A stretch of DNA of 9,060 nt from the NCBI GenBank assembly GCA_946886675.1, contig CAMPIZ010000052.1:1-9060 (forward strand). Reading direction: 5' to 3'. Positions 32 to 8,907 of the stretch are shown here, one piece after another (the stretch's first letter is position 1; every line of letters begins with the position of its first letter). A program made the position numbers and the translations under genes. The DNA is from an uncultured Flavobacterium sp. (GTDB lineage Bacteria > Bacteroidota > Bacteroidia > Flavobacteriales > Flavobacteriaceae). The notes under the pieces were generated by a model. The model was given only the letters and a program-made list of their open reading frames with translations. It was not told where the DNA came from and did no database searches.

Positions 32-45
32 GTGATGAGAATCAT
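32..45 (+). promoter_or_regulatory. Candidate Crp/Fnr operator upstream of the small peptide and regulator
   Basis: The sequence GTGATGAGAATCAT contains TGAT-N4-ATCA, the same dyad core as the three operators further on. Its centre (38.5) is exactly 33 bp upstream of the centre of a promoter-like TAATTTTA at 68-75, the spacing seen at the other three sites. The outer base on the left is G instead of A, making it the weakest of the four. It would place the 36-residue peptide, and perhaps the downstream regulator gene, under the same control (autoregulation). This is inferred from pattern and spacing. Confidence 0.5.
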
Positions 46-67
46 TTTTTAGCAGAGTGTCCATATA

Positions 68-75
68 TAATTTTA
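68..75 (+). promoter_or_regulatory. Candidate -7 promoter element (TAATTTTA)
   Basis: This matches the Bacteroidota -7 consensus TAnnTTTG at five of six fixed positions (final G is A). It was noticed because of its exact 33-bp distance from the operator at 32-45. Transcription would begin around 78-80, about 36 bases before the ATG at 116. Alone the match is weak; its support is the shared spacing. Confidence 0.4.
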
Positions 76-115
76 CACTGCTTTTAAATCAAAGGCACAC
101 TAATGGGTAAGTTTT

Positions 116-226
116 ATGATATATTTTGCCGCCGTAGTTTTAGTAATTGTACTTTTTATACTGATGCTAAGCCTCTCTGCGCTTTCAGGCTTTACAAATA
201 AAGATCAGGAACCCAATAAAAATTAA
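116..226 (+). CDS. Candidate 36-residue single-span membrane peptide
   Basis: The ATG at 116 opens a 36-codon frame ending in TAA at 224-226. Residues 2-24 are almost wholly hydrophobic (MIYFAAVVLVIVLFIL at the start), followed by a short polar tail ending KDQEPNKN. That layout, one membrane span and a charged end, is typical of small membrane proteins and unlikely in random sequence, but no family is recognised. An ATG at 103 in another frame gives a peptide without such order, so 116 is preferred. No strong ribosome binding site is visible, which is normal in Bacteroidota. It lies 54 bases upstream of the regulator gene and downstream of a candidate operator and promoter, so the two may be cotranscribed. 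Function unknown. Confidence 0.4.
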   Translation: MIYFAAVVLVIVLFILMLSLSALSGFTNKDQEPNKN

Positions 227-280
227 AATTATAAATCTTCTAAATAACCAATAAAGTCTAACTAATTAATCACAGACGTT

Positions 281-955
281 ATGAGCAATTGCGAACAATG
301 TATAGTGCGACGCACGAGTTCTCTAAAAGCATTAAATGAAGCAGAAATAAATGTTATACAGGATTGCAAAACAACCCATACCATAAAACGCGGAGATCAG
401 CTTTTTGGCGAAGGAGAGCACCTGAATGGTATATTTTGCATTAAGGCCGGAACATGCAAACTCACCAAGTTAAGCCCTAATGGCAATGAGCAGATTGTAA
501 AGCTTATAAGCGGTGGCGAATTGCTTGGCCAGCGCTCCATGATAAGTGGTGAGCCTGCAAACCTAAGCGCTGTCGCGCTGGAAGACATGATAGTTTGCAG
601 TATACCTAAAAATGAAGTAATGCCTTTTTTTAATAAGAACAATGGCTTTTCTATGAATGTAATGAAAACCATTTGCAGTGAACTTAAAACTGCCGATGAT
701 CATTTAGTAACTATGGCACAAAAACCGGTTAAGCAGCGACTTGCAGAAACACTTGTTTATCTGTACGATAAATTTGGAACACTTGAAGATGGAAACCTTA
801 GTATAAAATTATTCCGTGAAGAGCTGGCAGGCATGGTGGGTACTGCAACTGAAAGCTGTATAAGAATGCTTTCTGACTTTAATAAGGCCGGCTATATACA
901 GCTTAGCGGTAAAAAAATAAGCATAAACAGAGAGAAACTGGTTAAGTATGCTTAA
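281..955 (+). CDS. Crp/Fnr-family transcriptional regulator
   Basis: A 224-residue regulator with the two-domain Crp/Fnr layout. Residues about 15-120 form a cyclic-nucleotide-binding-like beta roll (IKRGDQLFGEGE at 35-46, then GGELLGQRSMISGE at 78-91). A dimerisation helix covers about 122-147 and a winged helix-turn-helix about 150-220 (FREELAGMVGTATESCIRML at 178-197). E191 and R195 align with E209 and R213 of E. coli FNR, which read the TGA core of the half site. The arginine with which CRP holds cAMP is not at the expected place (NLSA at 94-97), so cAMP is an unlikely ligand. N-terminal C4-x2-C7 resembles the start of the FNR iron-sulfur motif, but the third cysteine six residues on is missing; other cysteines are at 29, 53, 59, 106, 132 and 193. 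The signal sensed is therefore open. Its position beside the cco genes and the TGA-cored operators nearby make it the likely activator of the locus. Confidence 0.92.
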   Translation: MSNCEQCIVRRTSSLKALNEAEINVIQDCKTTHTIKRGDQLFGEGEHLNGIFCIKAGTCKLTKLSPNGNEQIVKLISGGELLGQRSMISGEPANLSAVALEDMIVCSIPKNEVMPFFNKNNGFSMNVMKTICSELKTADDHLVTMAQKPVKQRLAETLVYLYDKFGTLEDGNLSIKLFREELAGMVGTATESCIRMLSDFNKAGYIQLSGKKISINREKLVKYA

Positions 956-957
956 CC
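940..957. terminator. Inverted repeat at the convergent stop codons, possible weak bidirectional terminator
   Basis: GGTTAAG, the four-base loop TATG, then CTTAACC form a perfect 7-bp stem spanning the stop codon of the regulator gene and reaching the first base of the stop codon of the opposing gene. The one-base gap leaves no other room for termination. The stem is AT-rich and lacks a clean T-tract on either side, so it would be a weak intrinsic terminator. Confidence 0.35.
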
Positions 958-1394
958 TACTCCTTTAACTCCTTAAGGGCTTCATTTAGTTTTTCGCGAT
1001 CTTTATAAAACCCATCTTTAAAATCTTCCATTTTTTGTATCATTTCTTCATCAGGCTGTATTCGGGTATAATTATAGGCAGAGATTCTCTGTAAACGTTC
1101 ACATAGTGTTTCAAGCCTGGTTTCTGCCTTAACTATAGAACCTTTTAGCCTTGATCTTCCCGATTTTAAATCATACAGCCTGTCATTTGCTACAGAAATA
1201 TCTTTTTCCGCGGCCATTATAGTGCTGTCTGCCTGGCGCAAAAATTTTTCCCAGTCCTCAACTGTTTTCCTTACAAAAATATCTTCGGCTACATAGCCTA
1301 CCTCATCTATATCTCTGTATTCTTCACTATCGTCTTCTTTACATTTAATTGGCGCTGCCGCCAGAAACAAACCTGCCAGTATAAGTGTTTTCAT
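957..1394 (-). CDS. Exported coiled-coil protein of unknown function, candidate regulon member
   Basis: A 145-residue protein of no family I recognise. It starts with a lysine and a hydrophobic stretch (residues 2-14, LILAGLFLAAA), a signal peptide. Cysteine 18 follows, then the acidic run KEDDSEE. Cys followed by acidic residues resembles the lipoprotein export signal of Bacteroidota surface lipoproteins, but the lipobox is poor (PIK before the Cys), so it may instead be a soluble periplasmic protein. The rest (about 40-145) is charged and helix-rich with heptad-like spacing, suggesting a coiled coil; C98 is the only other cysteine. The start is supported by AAAG just before the ATG and by the signal peptide. 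It runs divergently from ccoI, and a promoter match 33 bp from its own operator lies just upstream, so it is probably induced with the oxidase. A role in oxidase assembly or the envelope response to low oxygen is speculation. Confidence 0.8.
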   Translation of the reverse strand: MKTLILAGLFLAAAPIKCKEDDSEEYRDIDEVGYVAEDIFVRKTVEDWEKFLRQADSTIMAAEKDISVANDRLYDLKSGRSRLKGSIVKAETRLETLCERLQRISAYNYTRIQPDEEMIQKMEDFKDGFYKDREKLNEALKELKE

Positions 1395-1421
1395 CTTTAT
1401 GGATTTACATTAATATATTTT

Positions 1422-1429
1422 CAAATTTC
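1422..1429 (-). promoter_or_regulatory. Candidate -7 promoter element of the divergent unknown gene
   Basis: On the minus strand this reads GAAATTTG, five of six fixed positions of TAnnTTTG. It is exactly 33 bp from the centre of the operator at 1452-1465, and its last base is 28 bases before the ATG at 1394. The same operator has no such match at that spacing in the plus direction. Confidence 0.5.
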
Positions 1430-1451
1430 TGCCCTTTAAAGCATATAGCAA

Positions 1452-1465
1452 ATGATATATATCAT
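1452..1465. promoter_or_regulatory. Crp/Fnr-type operator serving the divergent unknown gene
   Basis: ATGATATATATCAT is a perfect 14-bp palindrome with TGAT-N4-ATCA at its core. Its centre (1458.5) lies 33 bp from the minus-strand promoter match and 35 bp from the centre of the second operator (1493.5). It most likely acts on the gene at 957-1394, but could also act on ccoI from a more distant upstream position. The binding protein is inferred to be the regulator at 281-955. Confidence 0.7.
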
Positions 1466-1486
1466 GTTCTGCAAAAAAACGGGAGT

Positions 1487-1500
1487 ATGACATATATCAT
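1487..1500. promoter_or_regulatory. Crp/Fnr-type operator of ccoI
   Basis: ATGACATATATCAT differs from the palindrome at 1452 by one base. It is followed by GTTTT, as is the operator before ccoS. Its centre (1493.5) is 33 bp upstream of the ccoI promoter match, which puts it near -40 relative to the expected start of transcription, the class II activator position for Crp/Fnr proteins. Confidence 0.75.
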
Positions 1501-1522
1501 GTTTTAAAACACCAATGTGTAC

Positions 1523-1530
1523 AACTTTTG
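1523..1530 (+). promoter_or_regulatory. Candidate -7 promoter element of ccoI (AACTTTTG)
   Basis: Five of six fixed positions of TAnnTTTG match. It ends 21 bases before the ccoI ATG, exactly as the ccoS promoter ends 21 bases before its ATG. No good -33 box is seen beyond the T-rich GTTTT abutting the operator, consistent with dependence on an activator. Confidence 0.55.
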
Positions 1531-1550
1531 TATCAGGTAATTGAACAGAT

Positions 1551-3926
1551 ATGAGTACAAGTTGTTATCACTGCGGGCTGGATATAGAGCGTAGTAAAGA
1601 AATTATATTTGATGATAAGTCTTTTTGCTGCAACGGCTGTAAAACTGTATATGAAATTTTTAACCAAAGCGGCTTAACCGACTATTACAAATATGAAAGG
1701 TCTCACGGCACTACTCCAGCCGGAGCCGATGGCAGATATGATTTTCTGGATAATGAAGACATAATACAGCGCCTGCTTGATTTTGAAGAAAAAGATACCT
1801 CAGTTTTACCTTTATATATCCCCACAATACATTGCAGTTCGTGTATTTATGTATTAGAAAACCTCGATAAACTACATAGCGCCATAAGCAGCTCTCAGGT
1901 AAATTTTAATGAGAAAAAAGTAAGGATTGTTTTTAACCGTAGTAAAATATCCTTAAAAGAAATAGCACTCCTGCTTAACTCCATAGGCTATGAACCTTAC
2001 ATAAGTCTTGACAATTATGATAAAAAGTCAAAAAAAGCCAATAGGGAATTAATATATAAACTTGGTGTTGCTTTCTTTTGTTTTGGCAATGTAATGCTGC
2101 TCTCCTTTCCTGAATATTTTGAGGTAGAAGAATACTGGCTGGATAATTATAAAGGCTTCTTCAGGTGGCTCATATTCGCCCTTTCCCTCCCTTCATTTCT
2201 GTATGCAGCCAGCGGTTATTATGTCTCTGCATGGAAAAGCTTTAAATCGGGCATGCTAAATATAGATGTGCCTATAGCTCTTGGCATTATTGTAATGTTC
2301 ATAAGGAGTACTATAGAAATTGTACTCGGCCTGGGCCAGGGCTTTTTTGACAGCCTTACCGGCCTGGTATTTTTTATGCTGTTAGGGAGGCTTTTTCAGC
2401 AAAAAACCTATGACTTCCTTTCTTTTGAAAGGGACTTTAAATCTTATTTTCCTATTGCGGTTACCAAAATAATTACCGGAAGGAAAGAGGTATCTGTACC
2501 CGTTTATGAAATTGCCGCCGGAGACAGGCTGCTTATACGCAATCAGGAGCTTATACCTGTAGACGGCATACTGATAAGCGAAAACGCATCTATAGATTAT
2601 AGCTTTGTTACCGGAGAAGCAATACCGGTAGAGAAAAAATCGGGCGATACCATTTATGCAGGAGGCAGGCAGGTAAGCCAGGCTATAGAGCTCGAAGTTT
2701 TAAACTCGGTTTCCCAAAGCTATCTCACACAACTGTGGAGCAACGATGTATTTACAAAAAAGCAAACAAAGAATTTTAAAACCATTACCGATACTATAAG
2801 CAGATATTTTACCCCCATACTGCTGCTAATAGCGGCATGTGCTTTTACGGTATGGGTTTTTATAGATGTACTTACCGCTTTAAATGTGTTTACAGCTATA
2901 CTTATTGTAGCCTGCCCCTGTGCATTGGCTTTAAGTGCGCCTTTTGCCCTTGGCAACATCCTCAGGATAATGGGCAACAAAAAGCTATACCTTAAAAATG
3001 CAACAGTTATTGAGCAAATGGCAAAAGTGGATACGGTGGTATTTGATAAGACAGGTACAATAACAACAAATTCACTTTCCGGAATACAATTTATAGGTGA
3101 AGAGCCTGACGAAAAAGAACTGATGTATATAAAAGCGTTGTTAAGGGCATCAAACCATCCGCTGAGCCGTAAGCTATATGATTTTCTTCCTGAAGCAGGA
3201 ACTAAGCTTGCAGAGGATTTTGAAGAAATTCCCGGTAAAGGCATTAAAGGTGTGGTAGATGGCTTTTCTATAAGAATAGGCTCTGCAGAATTTGTTGGGG
3301 AAGCTCCGGAAAGCACACTGCAAACTGAGGTTTATGTATCTGTTAACAGAAACTGCATTGGCAGGTATGTATTTACAAACAGTTACCGCTCCGGACTGGC
3401 TGAGCTATTTGAATCATTAAGTAAAAACTACAAGCTAATAATACTTTCCGGCGATAATGAAGGTGAACGCGAAATCCTTAAAAAACTACTTCCTGAAGGG
3501 ACAGAACTGGTATTTAACCAAAAACCCGGTCAAAAGCTCTCCTATATAGAAAACCTGCAAAAGCAGGGACATAATGTTATGATGGTTGGCGATGGACTTA
3601 ACGATGCAGGAGCGCTTGCACAAAGCAATGTAGGCATTGCCGTATCCGAAAATATAAATGTATTCTCCCCTGCGTGCGATGGTATCCTGGATGCTTCAAA
3701 GTTTTCATGGCTGCATTACTTTTTAAAGCTTTCAAAAAACACCATTAAAACCATAAAAATGAGTTTTGTGCTCTCTATACTCTATAACCTTGTAGGCCTC
3801 TCTTTTGCTATTACAGGCAGGGTTTCCCCGCTCACGGCAGCCATTATAATGCCTCTAAGCACTATAACTATTATAAGTTTTGTAACTATAATGGGTAACT
3901 ATTACTCAAAAACTACAAAGGCATGA
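1551..3926 (+). CDS. ccoI: CcoI/FixI copper-transporting P1B-type ATPase for cbb3 oxidase maturation
   Basis: This membrane pump moves copper out of the cytoplasm so that the binuclear centre of cbb3 oxidase can be built. The 791 residues show a cysteine-rich N-terminal metal-binding domain (C5-x2-C8, then C26 C27-x2-C30), a second heavy-metal-binding-like domain with CSSC at 95-98, and about eight membrane spans. The copper-selective CPC motif is at 455-457, the actuator motif TGEA at 354-357, the phosphorylated aspartate D499 in DKTGT, the HP motif at 536-537 and the hinge GDGLND at 680-685. All catalytic residues are present. The N-terminal CxxC/CCxGC domain together with its place before ccoS and ccoNO identifies CcoI rather than a general CopA. 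Its own promoter and operator lie upstream; its stop codon is inside the next operator, with 60 bases to ccoS. Confidence 0.96.
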   Translation: MSTSCYHCGLDIERSKEIIFDDKSFCCNGCKTVYEIFNQSGLTDYYKYERSHGTTPAGADGRYDFLDNEDIIQRLLDFEEKDTSVLPLYIPTIHCSSCIYVLENLDKLHSAISSSQVNFNEKKVRIVFNRSKISLKEIALLLNSIGYEPYISLDNYDKKSKKANRELIYKLGVAFFCFGNVMLLSFPEYFEVEEYWLDNYKGFFRWLIFALSLPSFLYAASGYYVSAWKSFKSGMLNIDVPIALGIIVMFIRSTIEIVLGLGQGFFDSLTGLVFFMLLGRLFQQKTYDFLSFERDFKSYFPIAVTKIITGRKEVSVPVYEIAAGDRLLIRNQELIPVDGILISENASIDYSFVTGEAIPVEKKSGDTIYAGGRQVSQAIELEVLNSVSQSYLTQLWSNDVFTKKQTKNFKTITDTISRYFTPILLLIAACAFTVWVFIDVLTALNVFTAILIVACPCALALSAPFALGNILRIMGNKKLYLKNATVIEQMAKVDTVVFDKTGTITTNSLSGIQFIGEEPDEKELMYIKALLRASNHPLSRKLYDFLPEAGTKLAEDFEEIPGKGIKGVVDGFSIRIGSAEFVGEAPESTLQTEVYVSVNRNCIGRYVFTNSYRSGLAELFESLSKNYKLIILSGDNEGEREILKKLLPEGTELVFNQKPGQKLSYIENLQKQGHNVMMVGDGLNDAGALAQSNVGIAVSENINVFSPACDGILDASKFSWLHYFLKLSKNTIKTIKMSFVLSILYNLVGLSFAITGRVSPLTAAIIMPLSTITIISFVTIMGNYYSKTTKA

Positions 3927-3936
3927 CAATTATCAT
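3923..3936. promoter_or_regulatory. Crp/Fnr-type operator of the ccoS-NO-QPGH operon
   Basis: ATGACAATTATCAT has the core TGAC-N4-ATCA and, like the ccoI operator, is followed by GTTTT. It contains the ccoI stop codon (TGA at 3924-3926). Its centre (3929.5) is 33 bp upstream of a perfect promoter match. It predicts independent activation of the structural oxidase genes. Confidence 0.75.
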
Positions 3937-3958
3937 GTTTTTTAAACCCAACCAGCAA

Positions 3959-3966
3959 TAGCTTTG
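3959..3966 (+). promoter_or_regulatory. -7 promoter element of the ccoS-NO-QPGH operon (TAGCTTTG)
   Basis: A perfect match to the Bacteroidota consensus TAnnTTTG, 33 bp from the operator centre and ending 21 bases before the ccoS ATG. Transcription should begin near 3970, giving a leader of roughly 17 bases. Confidence 0.7.
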
Positions 3967-3986: not shown

Positions 3987-4172
3987 ATGAGCGTAATCTA
4001 TTTATTAATCTCCATCAGTATAGTTGTGGCAGTTTCCTTTTTTCTTGCTTTTGTAAAAGCAGTCAAAAGCGGTCAGTATGATGATGACTATACTCCTTCT
4101 GTCAGGATTCTTTTTGACAACGAACTCAAAAAAAACAAAACCGAACAAAACAACACAAATATCACAAAGTAA
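3987..4172 (+). CDS. ccoS: CcoS, small membrane protein for cbb3 oxidase maturation
   Basis: A 61-residue protein with one N-terminal membrane span (about residues 3-25, IYLLISISIVVAVSFFLAF) followed by a short soluble tail containing SGQYDDDYTPSVRILFD. The acidic YDD stretch just after the span is the usual CcoS signature. CcoS is needed in proteobacteria for putting cofactors into the oxidase. The start is preceded by AAGAGGT, a plausible ribosome binding site, unusually good for this window. The stop is one base before the ccoNO start, so the two are translationally close. It is the first gene of the main oxidase transcript. Confidence 0.93.
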   Translation: MSVIYLLISISIVVAVSFFLAFVKAVKSGQYDDDYTPSVRILFDNELKKNKTEQNNTNITK

Positions 4173-4173
4173 T

Positions 4174-6372
4174 ATGGAAGTGCAACAGTTTTATTATGAC
4201 AATAAAATAGTTAAAAAGTTCCTGTATGCCACAATTGCGTTTGGTGTTATAGGAATGCTTGCGGGGCTGCTTATAGCCTCTATGTATATGTTCCCAAACC
4301 TTACCGAAGGTATCTCATGGCTAAGCTATGGGAGGCTAAGGCCGCTGCATACCAATGCAGTAATATTTGCTTTTGTGGGTAATGCCACATTTGCTGGTAT
4401 CTATTACTCCATGCAAAGGCTGCTTAAAACAAGAATGTACAGCGACCTGCTTAGTAACATCAACTTTTGGGGGTGGCAGCTTATTATTGTGGCTGCAGCT
4501 GTTACACTGCCTTTGGGCTACACAACCTCAAAAGAATATGCTGAGCTGGAATGGCCTATAGATATTGCCATCGCCATTGTTTGGGTGATATTTGGTATAA
4601 ATATGATAGGTACCATATTGAGGCGAAGGGAACGCCATCTTTATGTGGCAATATGGTTCTACATCGCCACCTTTGTAACGGTAGCTGTACTCCATATTTT
4701 TAACAGTCTTGAGCTTCCTGTAAGCGGGCTTAAAAGCTACTCTGTATATGCGGGAGTGCAGGACGCCCTGGTGCAATGGTGGTATGGCCATAATGCGGTT
4801 GCTTTCTTTTTAACCACACCTTTTCTTGGGCTCATGTATTATTTTCTTCCCAAGGCTGCCGAAAGGCCGGTGTACTCTTACAGGCTGTCTATAATACACT
4901 TTTGGTCGCTTATATTTATATACATATGGGCAGGGCCTCACCATCTGCTCTACTCTGCCCTGCCCGACTGGGCACAAAATCTGGGTGTAGTTTTCTCTAT
5001 AATGCTTATAGCGCCTTCGTGGGGAGGTATGATAAACGGTTTGCTTACTTTAAGGGGTGCCTGGGATAAAGTGCGTACAGACCCGGTTTTAAAATTCTTT
5101 GTGGTAGCTATAACCGGTTATGGTATGGCTACTTTTGAAGGGCCTATGCTGTCGCTTAAAAATGTAAATGCCATTGCCCATTTTTCCGACTGGATTGTGG
5201 CCCACGTACATGTAGGAGCGCTTGCCTGGAACGGTTTTTTAACCTTTGGTATGATATACTGGCTTGTACCAAGAATGACAAAAACATCATTATACTCTGT
5301 TAAGCTGGCTAATTTCCATTTCTGGATCGGTACGCTGGGGATTATACTTTATGCTTTACCTATGTATGTAGCAGGGTTTGTACAGGCATCTATGTGGAAA
5401 CAGTTTAATCCTGACGGTACTTTAAAATACGGTAACTTCCTTGAAACAGTAAAGGAAATAATGCCTATGTACTGGATGAGGGCCATAGGCGGTACACTCT
5501 TTGTCATTGGGTTACTGGTACTGGTATACAATATTATAATGACTGTAAAACAGGGCCGTGCCATTGAAGATGAACTTGCTGAAGCTCCCGGCCTTGAAAA
5601 GCTAACCGGAAAAAGACTTAAGGGCGAAGGTTTTCACCCGTGGCTGGAAAGAAGGCCTGTACAGCTAACAATACTTGCCACTATAGCAATACTTATTGGC
5701 GGGATTATACAAATTGTACCAACACTGGTAGTAAAATCAAACATCCCTACTATATCCACAGTTAAGCCCTATACTCCGCTGGAGCTGGAAGGCCGCGACC
5801 TTTATATTAGGGAGGGTTGTGTTAACTGCCATTCGCAGATGATACGTCCCTTCAGATCGGAAGTGGAACGGTATGGAGAATATTCCAAATCCGGAGAATA
5901 TGTTTACGACCATCCGTTTTTATGGGGTTCAAAAAGAACAGGGCCAGACCTGATGAGGGTTGGTGGCAAATATAGCGACAACTGGCACTTTAACCACATG
6001 TGGGACCCGCAAAGTACATCCTCCGGTTCTATCATGCCTTCCTATAAATGGCTATTTGATAATAATAAAATGGATTATAGTGATATACGCAAAAAAATGG
6101 AAGTAATGGTTCAGCTTGGTGTACCCTATACTGAAAAGGATATAGCTGATGCCTATAAGGACATTGCGGAACAATCGGCAAAAATAGAACAGAATCTTTA
6201 TACAGACCCTGACTTTGTAAAGAGCTATGAAGAAAGTAAAAAAGCTGCTGCTGCAAGGGGCGAAGAATTTGTGGAAATGAAAGATCGTGAAATTGTAGCA
6301 CTAATAGCTTACCTGCAGCGATTAGGCACCGATATAAAAATAAAAAATACTTCAGAGCTAACACATAAATAA
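4174..6372 (+). CDS. ccoNO: CcoNO, fused catalytic subunit and membrane cytochrome c subunit of cbb3 oxidase
   Basis: One 732-residue protein joins CcoN (about 1-465) and CcoO (about 485-732); in proteobacteria they are separate. CcoN reduces oxygen and pumps protons. Its ligands are present: H59 and H346 for the low-spin haem b, H344 for haem b3, H206, H256 and H257 for CuB, with Y250 where the cross-linked tyrosine of cbb3 enzymes sits and E322 in TFEGPM. A linker (GRAIEDELAE to HPWLERRP, 461-494) leads to the CcoO membrane span (about 496-520), then the c-haem site CVNCH (549-553), with M621 in GSIMPSYKWL as the probable axial methionine. The start at 4174 (MEVQQFYYDN) is chosen because the frame's earlier ATG at 4078 lies deep inside ccoS. 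Fusion of these subunits is known in Bacteroidota. No frameshift is seen. Confidence 0.97.
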   Translation: MEVQQFYYDNKIVKKFLYATIAFGVIGMLAGLLIASMYMFPNLTEGISWLSYGRLRPLHTNAVIFAFVGNATFAGIYYSMQRLLKTRMYSDLLSNINFWGWQLIIVAAAVTLPLGYTTSKEYAELEWPIDIAIAIVWVIFGINMIGTILRRRERHLYVAIWFYIATFVTVAVLHIFNSLELPVSGLKSYSVYAGVQDALVQWWYGHNAVAFFLTTPFLGLMYYFLPKAAERPVYSYRLSIIHFWSLIFIYIWAGPHHLLYSALPDWAQNLGVVFSIMLIAPSWGGMINGLLTLRGAWDKVRTDPVLKFFVVAITGYGMATFEGPMLSLKNVNAIAHFSDWIVAHVHVGALAWNGFLTFGMIYWLVPRMTKTSLYSVKLANFHFWIGTLGIILYALPMYVAGFVQASMWKQFNPDGTLKYGNFLETVKEIMPMYWMRAIGGTLFVIGLLVLVYNIIMTVKQGRAIEDELAEAPGLEKLTGKRLKGEGFHPWLERRPVQLTILATIAILIGGIIQIVPTLVVKSNIPTISTVKPYTPLELEGRDLYIREGCVNCHSQMIRPFRSEVERYGEYSKSGEYVYDHPFLWGSKRTGPDLMRVGGKYSDNWHFNHMWDPQSTSSGSIMPSYKWLFDNNKMDYSDIRKKMEVMVQLGVPYTEKDIADAYKDIAEQSAKIEQNLYTDPDFVKSYEESKKAAAARGEEFVEMKDREIVALIAYLQRLGTDIKIKNTSELTHK

Positions 6373-6379
6373 GAAGGCT

Positions 6380-6574
6380 ATGCTAAAATTTATAAAACAT
6401 AATATGGACAGTATCTCAGGGATTGAGATCTATCCTATAATATCGCTTCTTATCTTTTTTATCTTTTTTGTTGCACTCTATACCTGGGTATATACCTATA
6501 AAAAAGATAAGATTAACGAAATGAGCAATATTCCTTTTAAAGGAGATGAAAATAACAGCCCTGAACTAAAATAA
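6380..6574 (+). CDS. ccoQ: CcoQ-like small subunit of cbb3 oxidase
   Basis: A 64-residue protein with one membrane span (about residues 17-39, YPIISLLIFFIFFVALYTWV) and a charged tail (KKDKINEMSNIPF). Size, topology and place between ccoNO and ccoP fit CcoQ/FixQ, which stabilises the association of CcoP with the core enzyme. An internal ATG at codon 9 (6404) is a possible alternative start; the first is kept because of its 7-base gap from the ccoNO stop, equal to the next two gaps in the operon. Sequence conservation in this family is low, so the call rests heavily on context. Confidence 0.85.
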   Translation: MLKFIKHNMDSISGIEIYPIISLLIFFIFFVALYTWVYTYKKDKINEMSNIPFKGDENNSPELK

Positions 6575-6581
6575 CAGACCT

Positions 6582-7490
6582 ATGAAAAAATTTATTCCGG
6601 TTTATGTAAGAGTGCCTGTTCTCTTTGCACTGGTGTTTATGGCCCTTGAATATTTTATAGATTCCGGAGACAGGCCGGCTTTTTTAAAGTATCCCGAAGT
6701 TTCCATTTTTCTGGGACTCTTTCTTTTCCTGCAAATAGCCATAGAAATTGTTCTAAGCGCCATAGACAACATTACCTACAGCCTGCTTACAGAAGAACAA
6801 AAGCAAAAACTGGCAGCCGCAGATGCTATTGAATTTAAAGATACCAAACTGTATAGGAAAATAAAAGGGTGGTTTGTAAAATCTAAACCTATTGAAGAAG
6901 AAGCCTCTATAACATTACATCATAATTATGACGGTATCGAGGAACTTGATAATGTTTTGCCTCCATGGTGGGTAAACCTTTTTTATGTCACTATACTCTT
7001 TGGGGTAGTTTATCTTGTACGCTACCATATTTTTAATGGTGAGGACCAGAAAACAGAATTTGAAACAGAAATGGCTGAAGCCCGCAAAGCGGTTGAAGAA
7101 TATAAAAAGACTGCAAAAGACCTGATAGACGAAAACTCCGTAATTCAGCTTTTTGAACAAAGTGAACTGGCAGAAGGTAAAAAGATTTTTGAAACCAACT
7201 GTGCCGCGTGCCACAGGCCCGATGGCGGGGGTGCCATAGGTCCAAATCTAACAGATGAATACTGGATTATGGGCGGCGGTATCAAAAATGTATTCCATAC
7301 AATTACAGAAGGCGGCCGGGACGGTAAGGGTATGGTTGCCTGGAAAGGCACGCTCAAACCATCTGAAATACAGTTGGTGGCCAGCTATGTGCTCTCGCTA
7401 CAGGGAACCAATCCCGCAGACCCTAAAGCGCCGGACGGTGATATATGGAATAATGAAGCTGACAGCGAAGTAGCTGCAAACATAAAATAA
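6582..7490 (+). CDS. ccoP: CcoP, single-haem cytochrome c subunit of cbb3 oxidase
   Basis: This subunit passes electrons from the quinol/cytochrome c side into CcoNO. The 302 residues begin with two membrane spans (about 8-25 and 40-61), a cytoplasmic loop, then the FixP N-terminal motif LDNVLPPWW (122-130) leading into a third span (about 131-149). A charged helical linker follows (155-185). One cytochrome c domain carries CAACH at 207-211 and probable axial M251 in GKGMVAWKG. Proteobacterial CcoP has two CxxCH motifs and usually one membrane span; here there is one haem site and an added N-terminal membrane hairpin. The reading frame is intact, so this appears to be the lineage's form rather than damage. 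Gaps to ccoQ and ccoG are both 7 bases. Confidence 0.95.
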   Translation: MKKFIPVYVRVPVLFALVFMALEYFIDSGDRPAFLKYPEVSIFLGLFLFLQIAIEIVLSAIDNITYSLLTEEQKQKLAAADAIEFKDTKLYRKIKGWFVKSKPIEEEASITLHHNYDGIEELDNVLPPWWVNLFYVTILFGVVYLVRYHIFNGEDQKTEFETEMAEARKAVEEYKKTAKDLIDENSVIQLFEQSELAEGKKIFETNCAACHRPDGGGAIGPNLTDEYWIMGGGIKNVFHTITEGGRDGKGMVAWKGTLKPSEIQLVASYVLSLQGTNPADPKAPDGDIWNNEADSEVAANIK

Positions 7491-7497
7491 AAGCACA

Positions 7498-8907
7498 ATG
7501 CAGGAAGAAGCGTTTAGAGACAGGATAGCTACAATAGATGATAAAGGAAAAAGAGCATGGATATATCCTAAAAAGCCTTCCGGAAAATTTTACAGGTACA
7601 GAAAGATGGTAAGCTATATATTGCTTGCTTTCCTTGTCCTTGCTCCTTTTGTTAAGATAAACGGCAACCAGTTTCTTATGTTTAATGTGCTGGAGCGGAA
7701 ATTCAATATTTTCGGTTTTCCTTTCTGGCCACAGGACTTCCATCTGTTTGTAATCTCCATGATTACAGGTGTTGTTTTTGTAGCACTATTTACGGTGGCA
7801 TTTGGCAGGTTATTTTGCGGATGGGTATGCCCGCAAACCATATTTATGGAAATGGTTTTCCGGCGTATTGAATACTGGATAGAAGGTGACAGGAACGCAC
7901 AGATAAAACTGGACAAGCAAAACTGGAATGCTGAAAAAATCAGGAAAAAAGTGATCAAATGGTTTATTTTCATTATTATTTCTTTTCTAATAGCCAATGT
8001 CTTCCTGGCTTACCTGAGTGGTAGCGATAAGCTCATACAAATGGTTACCGAAGGCCCTGCCCAACGCCCCGGAACCTTTATTGCATTATTGATATTTACA
8101 GCCGTATTTTACTTTATCTATATATGGTTTAGGGAACAGGTTTGTATTATTGCCTGTCCTTATGGAAGGCTGCAGGGAGTTTTGCTGGATAATAAATCGG
8201 TAATTGTTGCTTACGATCACAAACGCGGCGAAGGCGAAACAGGGCGGGGGAAAATTGTAAAGAATGAAGACCGGAACGCGGCGGGTAAAGGGGATTGTAT
8301 AGACTGCAGGCTTTGTGTACACGTATGCCCCACAGGCATAGACATTCGCAATGGGACACAGCTGGAATGCATAAACTGCACTGCCTGTATTGACGAATGT
8401 GATACGGTAATGCAAAAAGTAGGTCTGCCAAAAGGGCTTATACGATATGCAAGTGAAGACGAGATAACCAAAAAAGAAAAGTTTGCCTTTACACCAAGAA
8501 TGAAAGGTTATACAGCCGTATTAATTATTCTCCTTGGCATTTTTACCGGCATGTTGTTTTTAAGGAATGAAGTTGAAGCCACAGTATTGCGGTTGCCGGG
8601 GCAGCTGTATGAACATAAAGGTGATAATATAAGTAATGTGTTTACCTATAAAATTGTGAATAAAACCACAAAGGATTTTAATAATGTCCATTTTGAGCTT
8701 GCTAACCTGGAAGGAACTATAAGAGTTGTGGGCAGGCAGGAATTTAAAGTACCTAAAACAGGAACTGCACAGGGTACTTTGTTTGTGGAAATAAACAAAT
8801 ACCTTATAAAAGGCGACAAAACAAAAATTAAGCTAAGGGTTTACAACGGAGATAAACTGATAGAAACCGAATCAGTGAACTTTTTGGGCCCGAGGACCTT
8901 TAACTAA
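7498..8907 (+). CDS. ccoG: CcoG/FixG, membrane iron-sulfur protein for cbb3 oxidase assembly
   Basis: A 469-residue membrane ferredoxin-like protein; CcoG is known as a cupric reductase that prepares copper for the cbb3 binuclear centre. Membrane spans lie near 38-52, 82-102, 153-172, 194-210 and 338-354. The conserved FCGWVCPQT contains C107 and C111, and CIIACPYGR contains C216 and C220. Two classic 4Fe-4S motifs follow: C267-x2-C270-x2-C273-x3-C277-P and C291-x2-C294-x2-C297-x3-C301; the latter lacks the usual following proline (D302). After the last span comes a beta-rich domain of about 110 residues typical of the FixG C-terminus, expected in the periplasm. Length and order match the family. 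The start ATG is 7 bases after the ccoP stop. Confidence 0.96.
   Translation: MQEEAFRDRIATIDDKGKRAWIYPKKPSGKFYRYRKMVSYILLAFLVLAPFVKINGNQFLMFNVLERKFNIFGFPFWPQDFHLFVISMITGVVFVALFTVAFGRLFCGWVCPQTIFMEMVFRRIEYWIEGDRNAQIKLDKQNWNAEKIRKKVIKWFIFIIISFLIANVFLAYLSGSDKLIQMVTEGPAQRPGTFIALLIFTAVFYFIYIWFREQVCIIACPYGRLQGVLLDNKSVIVAYDHKRGEGETGRGKIVKNEDRNAAGKGDCIDCRLCVHVCPTGIDIRNGTQLECINCTACIDECDTVMQKVGLPKGLIRYASEDEITKKEKFAFTPRMKGYTAVLIILLGIFTGMLFLRNEVEATVLRLPGQLYEHKGDNISNVFTYKIVNKTTKDFNNVHFELANLEGTIRVVGRQEFKVPKTGTAQGTLFVEINKYLIKGDKTKIKLRVYNGDKLIETESVNFLGPRTFN

Follow-up and report, generated by a model that had tools for sequence, protein, structure and literature searches.

How are the cbb3 oxidase genes of a Flavobacterium switched on, and which protein reads the sites that precede them? 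The question is raised by a 9,060-base stretch of DNA from an uncultured Flavobacterium sp. (contig CAMPIZ010000052.1; the window, meaning here the whole of that stretch), whose gene content is that of a Flavobacteriaceae-type cbb3 oxidase region, from a Crp/Fnr-family regulator (fnr, 281-955) through ccoG. An earlier note, made from the letters alone, had described four matching operators, each exactly 33 bp from a promoter box, as an Fnr-type regulon in which this regulator activates all four promoters. The analysis reported here gives a probability of about 0.77 to a reading in which the dyads are operators of a Crp/Fnr dimer that activates the cbb3 genes from a class II position, the binder being most likely the protein encoded at 281-955.

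Dyads, boxes and their fixed spacing

The pattern TGAYNNNNRTCA (TGAY-N4-RTCA) has exactly four matches in the 9,060 bases, with centres at 38.5, 1458.5, 1493.5 and 3929.5 (dyads 1 to 4), and all four dyads have a TAnnTTTG-like box (5, 5, 5 and 6 of the 6 fixed bases) exactly 33.0 bp away; the pattern search confirmed every coordinate and distance that the earlier note had given for dyads and boxes. In dinucleotide shuffles 0.33 dyads are expected on average, and none of 200 shuffles gave at least four. Under an intergenic Markov model, in which boxes of 5/6 or better arise at p = 0.014 per position, one distance (15-60 bp) common to all four dyads has p ~3e-5 analytically and appeared in 0 of 5000 simulations, which bears out the claim that the constant distance is hard to explain by chance. 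All dyad centres fall outside open reading frames (ORFs) of at least 90 amino acids (aa); dyad 1 lies inside a 28-aa frame open at the window edge and dyad 4 starts within the ccoI stop codon, whose TGA (3924-3926) also serves as the TGA of the first half-site in the ccoS operator.

Dyads 2, 3 and 4 are near-perfect copies of ATGAY-N4-RTCAT, the first two being 35 bp apart. A position weight matrix (PWM), built from 19 ccoS and hemN sites of relatives that all meet TGAYNNNNRTCA by construction, gives them 19.9, 20.9 and 21.3 bits, respectively, and the next best place in the window reaches 11.0. Four sites of equal standing are ruled out by these scores: of the four matching operators proposed, three are strong and dyad 1 is a poor match.

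The closest relatives found belong to Flavobacterium, with a regulator identity of 75% at best. In these relatives, a dyad with a box of at least 5/6 at 33 bp precedes ccoI in 17 of 18 loci (the exception being L018), and a dyad with a box at the same distance precedes ccoS in all 16 loci where ccoS was located, so the dyads of these two promoters pass the test of conservation that had been set. Moreover, the box of ccoI lacks its first T in 16 of the 17 relative loci, as in the window, and that of ccoS is complete (6/6) in 15 of 16; the difference between the two promoters is therefore itself conserved.

The spacing is also a property of whole genomes. A scan of ten relatives for TGAYNNNNRTCA followed by TANNTTTG, with gaps equal to spacings of 18-48 bp (31 spacings), returned 154 matches against 66 for a reversed-pattern control; among the 150 of these 154 matches that were listed, the counts are 63 at a spacing of 33 bp, 19 at 34 bp and, averaged over the remaining 29 spacings, 2.3. 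When the strict 33-bp pattern was sought in 149 family genomes, 577 matches turned up, distributed over 118 genomes, against one for the reversed control; moved to 38 bp and to 28 bp, the two shifts used, the pattern matched 6 and 4 times, respectively. The 33-bp rule for which the earlier note had proposed a genome scan thus recurs genome-wide.

For those 82 sites of the ten genomes that have a spacing of 33 or 34 bp, the downstream genes were read, one member per family being domain-scanned. Recurrent among them are ccoS-ccoNO (10/10 genomes), a radical SAM gene according to Pfam that is presumably hemN (9/10), a gene for an OmpW protein (7/10) and one for a hibernation-factor-like protein (6/10, one site being at 34 bp), together with AhpC-type peroxiredoxin promoters in five genomes, all at 34 bp (L050, L103, L110, L119, L124). 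The remaining targets are mostly singletons, and some sites lie inside reading frames, where they may be due to chance. Only once does ccoI appear among the 82 sites, since most of its boxes are 5/6. Dyads of a second class, TTGAY-N4-RTCAA, were also seen 33 bp before TAnnTTTG boxes in some genomes (L062, L079, L080, L112, L113, L114) and perhaps belong to another Crp/Fnr paralogue with the same promoter geometry.

With regard to promoter geometry, the sigma-A box of F. psychrophilum is placed at -12 to -5 in the main text of its transcriptome study (PMC9723704). The box centre is then at -8.5 and a dyad centre 33 bp further upstream at -41.5, so that, with start positions taken from that species, the class II placement put forward in the note holds. 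In E. coli, 19 of the 23 FNR-activated promoters with a known start covered in the relevant passage of PMC3688515 have their site at -41.5 within 4 nucleotides. Furthermore, the same F. psychrophilum text reports that at low oxygen the cbb3 oxidase is strongly induced and enzymes of the heme pathway are induced (PMC9723704), a response that the ccoS-ccoNO and hemN targets match. From the sites and their spacing a mechanism can be proposed, in which a Crp/Fnr dimer would sit on the dyad at -41.5, next to the -33 region or on top of it, and recruit RNA polymerase (sigma-A) to the -7 boxes. The genes switched on would be ccoS-ccoNO-Q-P-G, taken here as one operon, the metal pump gene ccoI and, in the organism of the window, the adjacent orphan gene; dyad 1, if it works at all, would act on the small ORF and fnr.

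The regulator and its own promoter

The product of 281-955 belongs to the Crp/Fnr superfamily (PF00027, 4.6e-18; PF13545, 7.2e-13), and its AF2 model (pLDDT 79, with residues 1-16 below 50) matches Crp/Fnr structures, FNR 5e44 standing at rank 30 with a TM score of 0.77. In NCBIfam the FNR model PRK11161 is its best match (1.6e-25), but the 89.8 bits obtained are far from the cut-off of 228. FNR proper carries three N-terminal cluster cysteines, C-x2-C-x5-C, plus one in the beta roll. In the alignment to the A. fischeri FNR chain, Cys4, Cys7 and Cys106 align with FNR Cys20, Cys23 and Cys122, that is, with three of the four cysteines that we take to be the FNR ligands (Cys20, Cys23, Cys29, Cys122). 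The position of Cys29 (residue 13) is S or N in 49/49 sequences, drawn from the window, from the 18 loci and from the top 30 of a family search, genome G004 being present twice and others possibly so. Residue 29, located 22 residues after the CxxC motif, is a cysteine in 45 of them (H in 2, S in 1, N in 1); Cys53 and Cys106 are invariant, Cys59 is found in 48, and the recognition residues E191, S192, I194 and R195 are invariant in all 49. Of the label Fnr-type, the Crp/Fnr domains and three FNR cysteines stand and the third cluster cysteine does not. The pattern is suggestive of an FNR-like sensor in which one ligand has moved or, alternatively, of a thiol sensor. In the proposed mechanism, this linked, cysteine-rich, FNR-like protein (Fe-S or thiol) would most likely be the binder, with low oxygen as its activating signal.

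In the relatives, fnr adjoins ccoI in 17 of the 18 loci (in L006 the two are ~3 kb apart) and in 54 of 59 further loci, and the two genes are divergent in 18/18 and in the same 54; in the other five, ccoI is not within ~1.5 kb on either side, and four of the 59 come from genomes already among the 18. In the 54 regions, ccoI-facing boxes of at least 5/6 lie 33 bp from the dyad in 46 cases and 34 bp in 4, the next most frequent distances being 25 bp (9) and 15 bp (8), while fnr-facing 6/6 boxes lie at 19 bp (16) and 20 bp (14), and 9 more are spread over seven further distances, 33 bp among them. In this way fnr and ccoI share one operator in the relatives, usually 33 bp from the ccoI-facing box and 19-20 bp from the fnr-facing one. 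The window departs from this arrangement, having fnr in tandem with ccoI, an orphan gene in the place of fnr and two strong dyads.

Box positions in the relatives thus bear on how fnr itself is controlled. One alternative, for which the odds appear even, is that the regulator binds the sites and is autorepressed, the first dyad of the window being a chance or decayed site. A protein bound 19-20 bp from the fnr-facing box would lie over the fnr promoter, which suggests autorepression coupled with activation of ccoI: the 30 fnr-facing 6/6 boxes at these distances put the shared dyad near -28, and within the set of 18 loci a dyad precedes fnr in 16, of which 15 show a box 19-28 bp from it (five of these boxes being 5/6). 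The weak PWM match of dyad 1 points the same way, since it leaves that site dependent on its 33-bp spacing. However, the arrangement in the window is a different one and dyad 1 does have its box at 33 bp, for which the chance on either side is ~0.028; moreover, L004 has fnr-facing 6/6 boxes at both 33 and 19 bp, L008 has a box at 39 bp, and boxes occur at other distances too. As for the claim that the regulator activates all four promoters, it is supported in part, by the conserved operators before respiratory genes and by the linked fnr, and it loses its self-activating part, which is not a conserved arrangement.

Table 1. Predicted operators, promoter boxes and genes of the window (positions in bases).
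Feature	Position	Strand	Basis and remarks
Dyad 1, TGATGAGAATCA, centre 38.5	33..44		Weak operator candidate; pattern; PWM 2.5 bits, rank 21
-7 box, TAATTTTA, 5/6, centre 71.5	68..75	+	Pattern; 33 bp from dyad 1, directed toward small ORF and fnr
Small ORF, 36 aa	116..226	+	Candidate; ORF list; located between dyad 1 and fnr; hydrophobic on visual inspection
fnr, Crp/Fnr-family regulator	281..955	+	Domain search, alignments; CxxC at residues 4-7, further Cys 29, 53, 59, 106
Orphan gene, 145 aa	957..1394	-	Domain and protein searches, without family; faces dyad 2
-7 box, GAAATTTG, 5/6, centre 1425.5	1422..1429	-	Pattern; predicted to serve 957-1394
Dyad 2, ATGATATATATCAT, centre 1458.5	1452..1465		Strong predicted operator; pattern, PWM
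Dyad 3, ATGACATATATCAT, centre 1493.5	1487..1500		Strong predicted ccoI operator; pattern, PWM, relatives
-7 box, AACTTTTG, 5/6, centre 1526.5	1523..1530	+	Pattern, relatives; predicted to serve ccoI
ccoI-type heavy-metal P-type ATPase	1551..3926	+	Domain searches
Dyad 4, ATGACAATTATCAT, centre 3929.5	3923..3936		Strong predicted ccoS-ccoNO operator; pattern, PWM, relatives
-7 box, TAGCTTTG, 6/6, centre 3962.5	3959..3966	+	Pattern; predicted to serve ccoS
ccoS	3987..4172	+	Domain searches
ccoNO, fused cbb3 oxidase subunits I and II	4174..6372	+	Domain searches
ccoQ-like	6380..6574	+	Domain match below curated cut-off
ccoP-type cytochrome c subunit	6582..7490	+	Pfam FixP_N above cut-off; NCBIfam ccoP below its cut-off
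ccoG	7498..8907	+	Domain searches

The position of ccoI within the cco cluster points to copper as the metal pumped. The orphan gene at 957-1394 matched only itself in a protein search (6 member sequences, 16 contigs, 31 candidates scored), and yet it has a strong predicted operator with a box at 33 bp. The 36-aa ORF gave no match in a tblastn search of the 18 relative loci at E 1e-3.

A second candidate reader

Operators tied only to this fnr orthologue are ruled out, since of 32 genomes where fnr has no more than a weaker match 28 retain the operators, and their persistence there led to a second protein family: in genomes without fnr the next relative is a ~350-aa protein that combines a receiver domain with a CRP output domain (REC-CRP), present at E <= 1e-60 in 65 of the 149 family genomes. 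It would be improbable, though of some weight, that the operators are read mainly by another Crp/Fnr protein, for example REC-CRP under a FixL-like kinase with a heme PAS domain, and that 281-955 shares this task or only modulates it. The recognition residues E-S/T-x-I-R are common to 12/12 REC-CRP proteins and the 49 fnr proteins, and the 12 REC-CRP proteins read are without the cysteines of fnr. Because REC-CRP has these same residues and accompanies the operators where fnr is missing, 281-955 is best regarded as the presumptive binder. Perfect operators per genome are roughly additive, with means of 7.57 where both regulators occur, 3.29 with fnr only, 3.90 with REC-CRP only and 0.48 with neither, and at least one perfect operator is found in 35/35, 50/55, 28/30 and 5/29 genomes, respectively.

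The surroundings of REC-CRP agree with such a role. Among 20 sites in six REC-CRP genomes without fnr, the operator precedes ccoNO (2), hemN (1) and cytochrome c genes (4, one confirmed by Pfam and the others by similarity), and in 10 of 12 loci a dyad stands between REC-CRP and the next gene, in nine of them before what we take to be a universal-stress-like gene (L161-L172). A histidine kinase precedes REC-CRP where the region is visible, and the one scanned has PAS, HisKA and HATPase domains. For one kinase PAS domain FixL is the best solved-structure match (1d06, E 1.9e-14), with DosP also among the best, and the His and Arg of the FixL motif, which have a role in heme binding, are aligned. 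The His/Arg motif is present in three kinase frames among the 12 loci, several of the kinases being incomplete in the regions read; heme binding is putative. Against REC-CRP as the main reader, nine of ten Flavobacterium genomes are without a full-length match, the only one (G008) having 42% identity, and the 50 of 55 genomes noted above keep operators with fnr and no REC-CRP; the more distant Crp/Fnr paralogues of the REC-CRP genomes were read in part. Taken together, the cbb3 genes have a real set of class II Crp/Fnr-type operators that is strongly conserved, and a second reader in part of the family is probable.

Activation by 281-955 from the class II dyads, which the contrast of 3.29 operators with fnr only against 0.48 with neither regulator favours, has also to be set against several observations that weigh on the other side. 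Dyad 1 fits the PWM badly (2.5 bits), and, with the equivalent of FNR Cys29 missing, a [4Fe-4S] cluster as the oxygen sensor is hypothetical. The operators persist without fnr where REC-CRP is present (28/30 genomes, mean 3.9), five of 90 fnr genomes are without a perfect match, and five of the 29 with neither regulator have some. These counts ignore the kinship of the genomes; those with neither regulator are smaller, with a mean of 2.4 Mb, and of the 11 reaching at least 2.6 Mb three have a match. Finally, carbon sensing of a MalR-like kind is predicted, in a passage of PMC8510549, for a CRP/FNR homologue of a Flavobacteriales genome, which may or may not correspond to 281-955.

Two further explanations concern the spacing itself. 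Outside the dyad, promoter pairs agree at 13-30 of 53 positions, the maximum belonging to the ccoS/ccoI pair, so that a promoter duplication seems unlikely for most pairs and possible for this one. Chance in AT-rich intergenic DNA, although 5/6 boxes are common (184 in the window, both strands), is ruled out as the source of the spacing by the shifted-spacing controls and the spacing histogram, and is already refuted for the three strong sites.

Comparison with known oxygen-responsive systems

Switches of this type are familiar from other bacteria, and the regulon and the hints of a second reader in relatives appear new: among the matches listed in the open-access literature, titles and abstracts named neither a Flavobacteriaceae Fnr regulon nor an operator shared with REC-CRP. 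Tentatively, and at slightly less than even odds, the Flavobacteriaceae may control low-oxygen respiration by one code, ATGAY-N4-RTCAT placed 33-34 bp before TAnnTTTG (-41.5/-42.5), for two sensors that stand in for or supplement each other from species to species, a cysteine-based FNR-like protein with a moved ligand and a FixL-like heme kinase acting through REC-CRP. If this is true, the rhizobial FixL-FixK/FnrN network would have a shorter counterpart here that arose by convergence, in which a shared operator activates ccoI and represses fnr. It would provide a large and little-studied family with an oxygen regulon and a testable sequence rule, predicting targets genome by genome and transcription starts to the base, and it raises the questions of how two different sensors could draw on a single set of operators and by what means an FNR-like protein that lacks the canonical third ligand detects its signal.

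Like E. coli FNR, the system of the window has a Crp fold, three aligned cysteines, an operator at -41.5 and respiratory targets. It differs in having S or N at the position of Cys29, a Cys (or His) 22 residues past CxxC and the additional Cys53 and Cys59, and in its operator, ATGAY-N4-RTCAT here and TTGAT-N4-ATCAA in the E. coli FNR consensus, as well as in a promoter of the Bacteroidota TAnnTTTG type.

The F. psychrophilum transcriptome offers a likeness in the position of the sigma-A box and in the rise of cbb3 and heme genes at low oxygen; the words "fnr" and "crp" have 0 occurrences in the main text of that paper, which assigns no such regulator (PMC9723704).

In rhizobia, as described in passages of PMC7888657, cbb3 and fixGHIS operons stand under anaeroboxes at a near-constant distance (-32 to -34 in that paper's own counting), FixK and FnrN share boxes, including those before fixNOQP, and fnrN autoregulation is both positive and negative. 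The likeness to FixL-FixK/FnrN lies in a heme-kinase pathway and an FNR-like sensor that would act on common boxes (PMC7888657). Unlike in rhizobia, the response regulator here has a terminal CRP domain of its own in place of a separate FixK, and phylum, operator and promoter are different; moreover, the rhizobial example, in the passages concerned, of one box that activates a gene and probably represses its neighbour is a K-box and not an anaerobox (PMC7888657).

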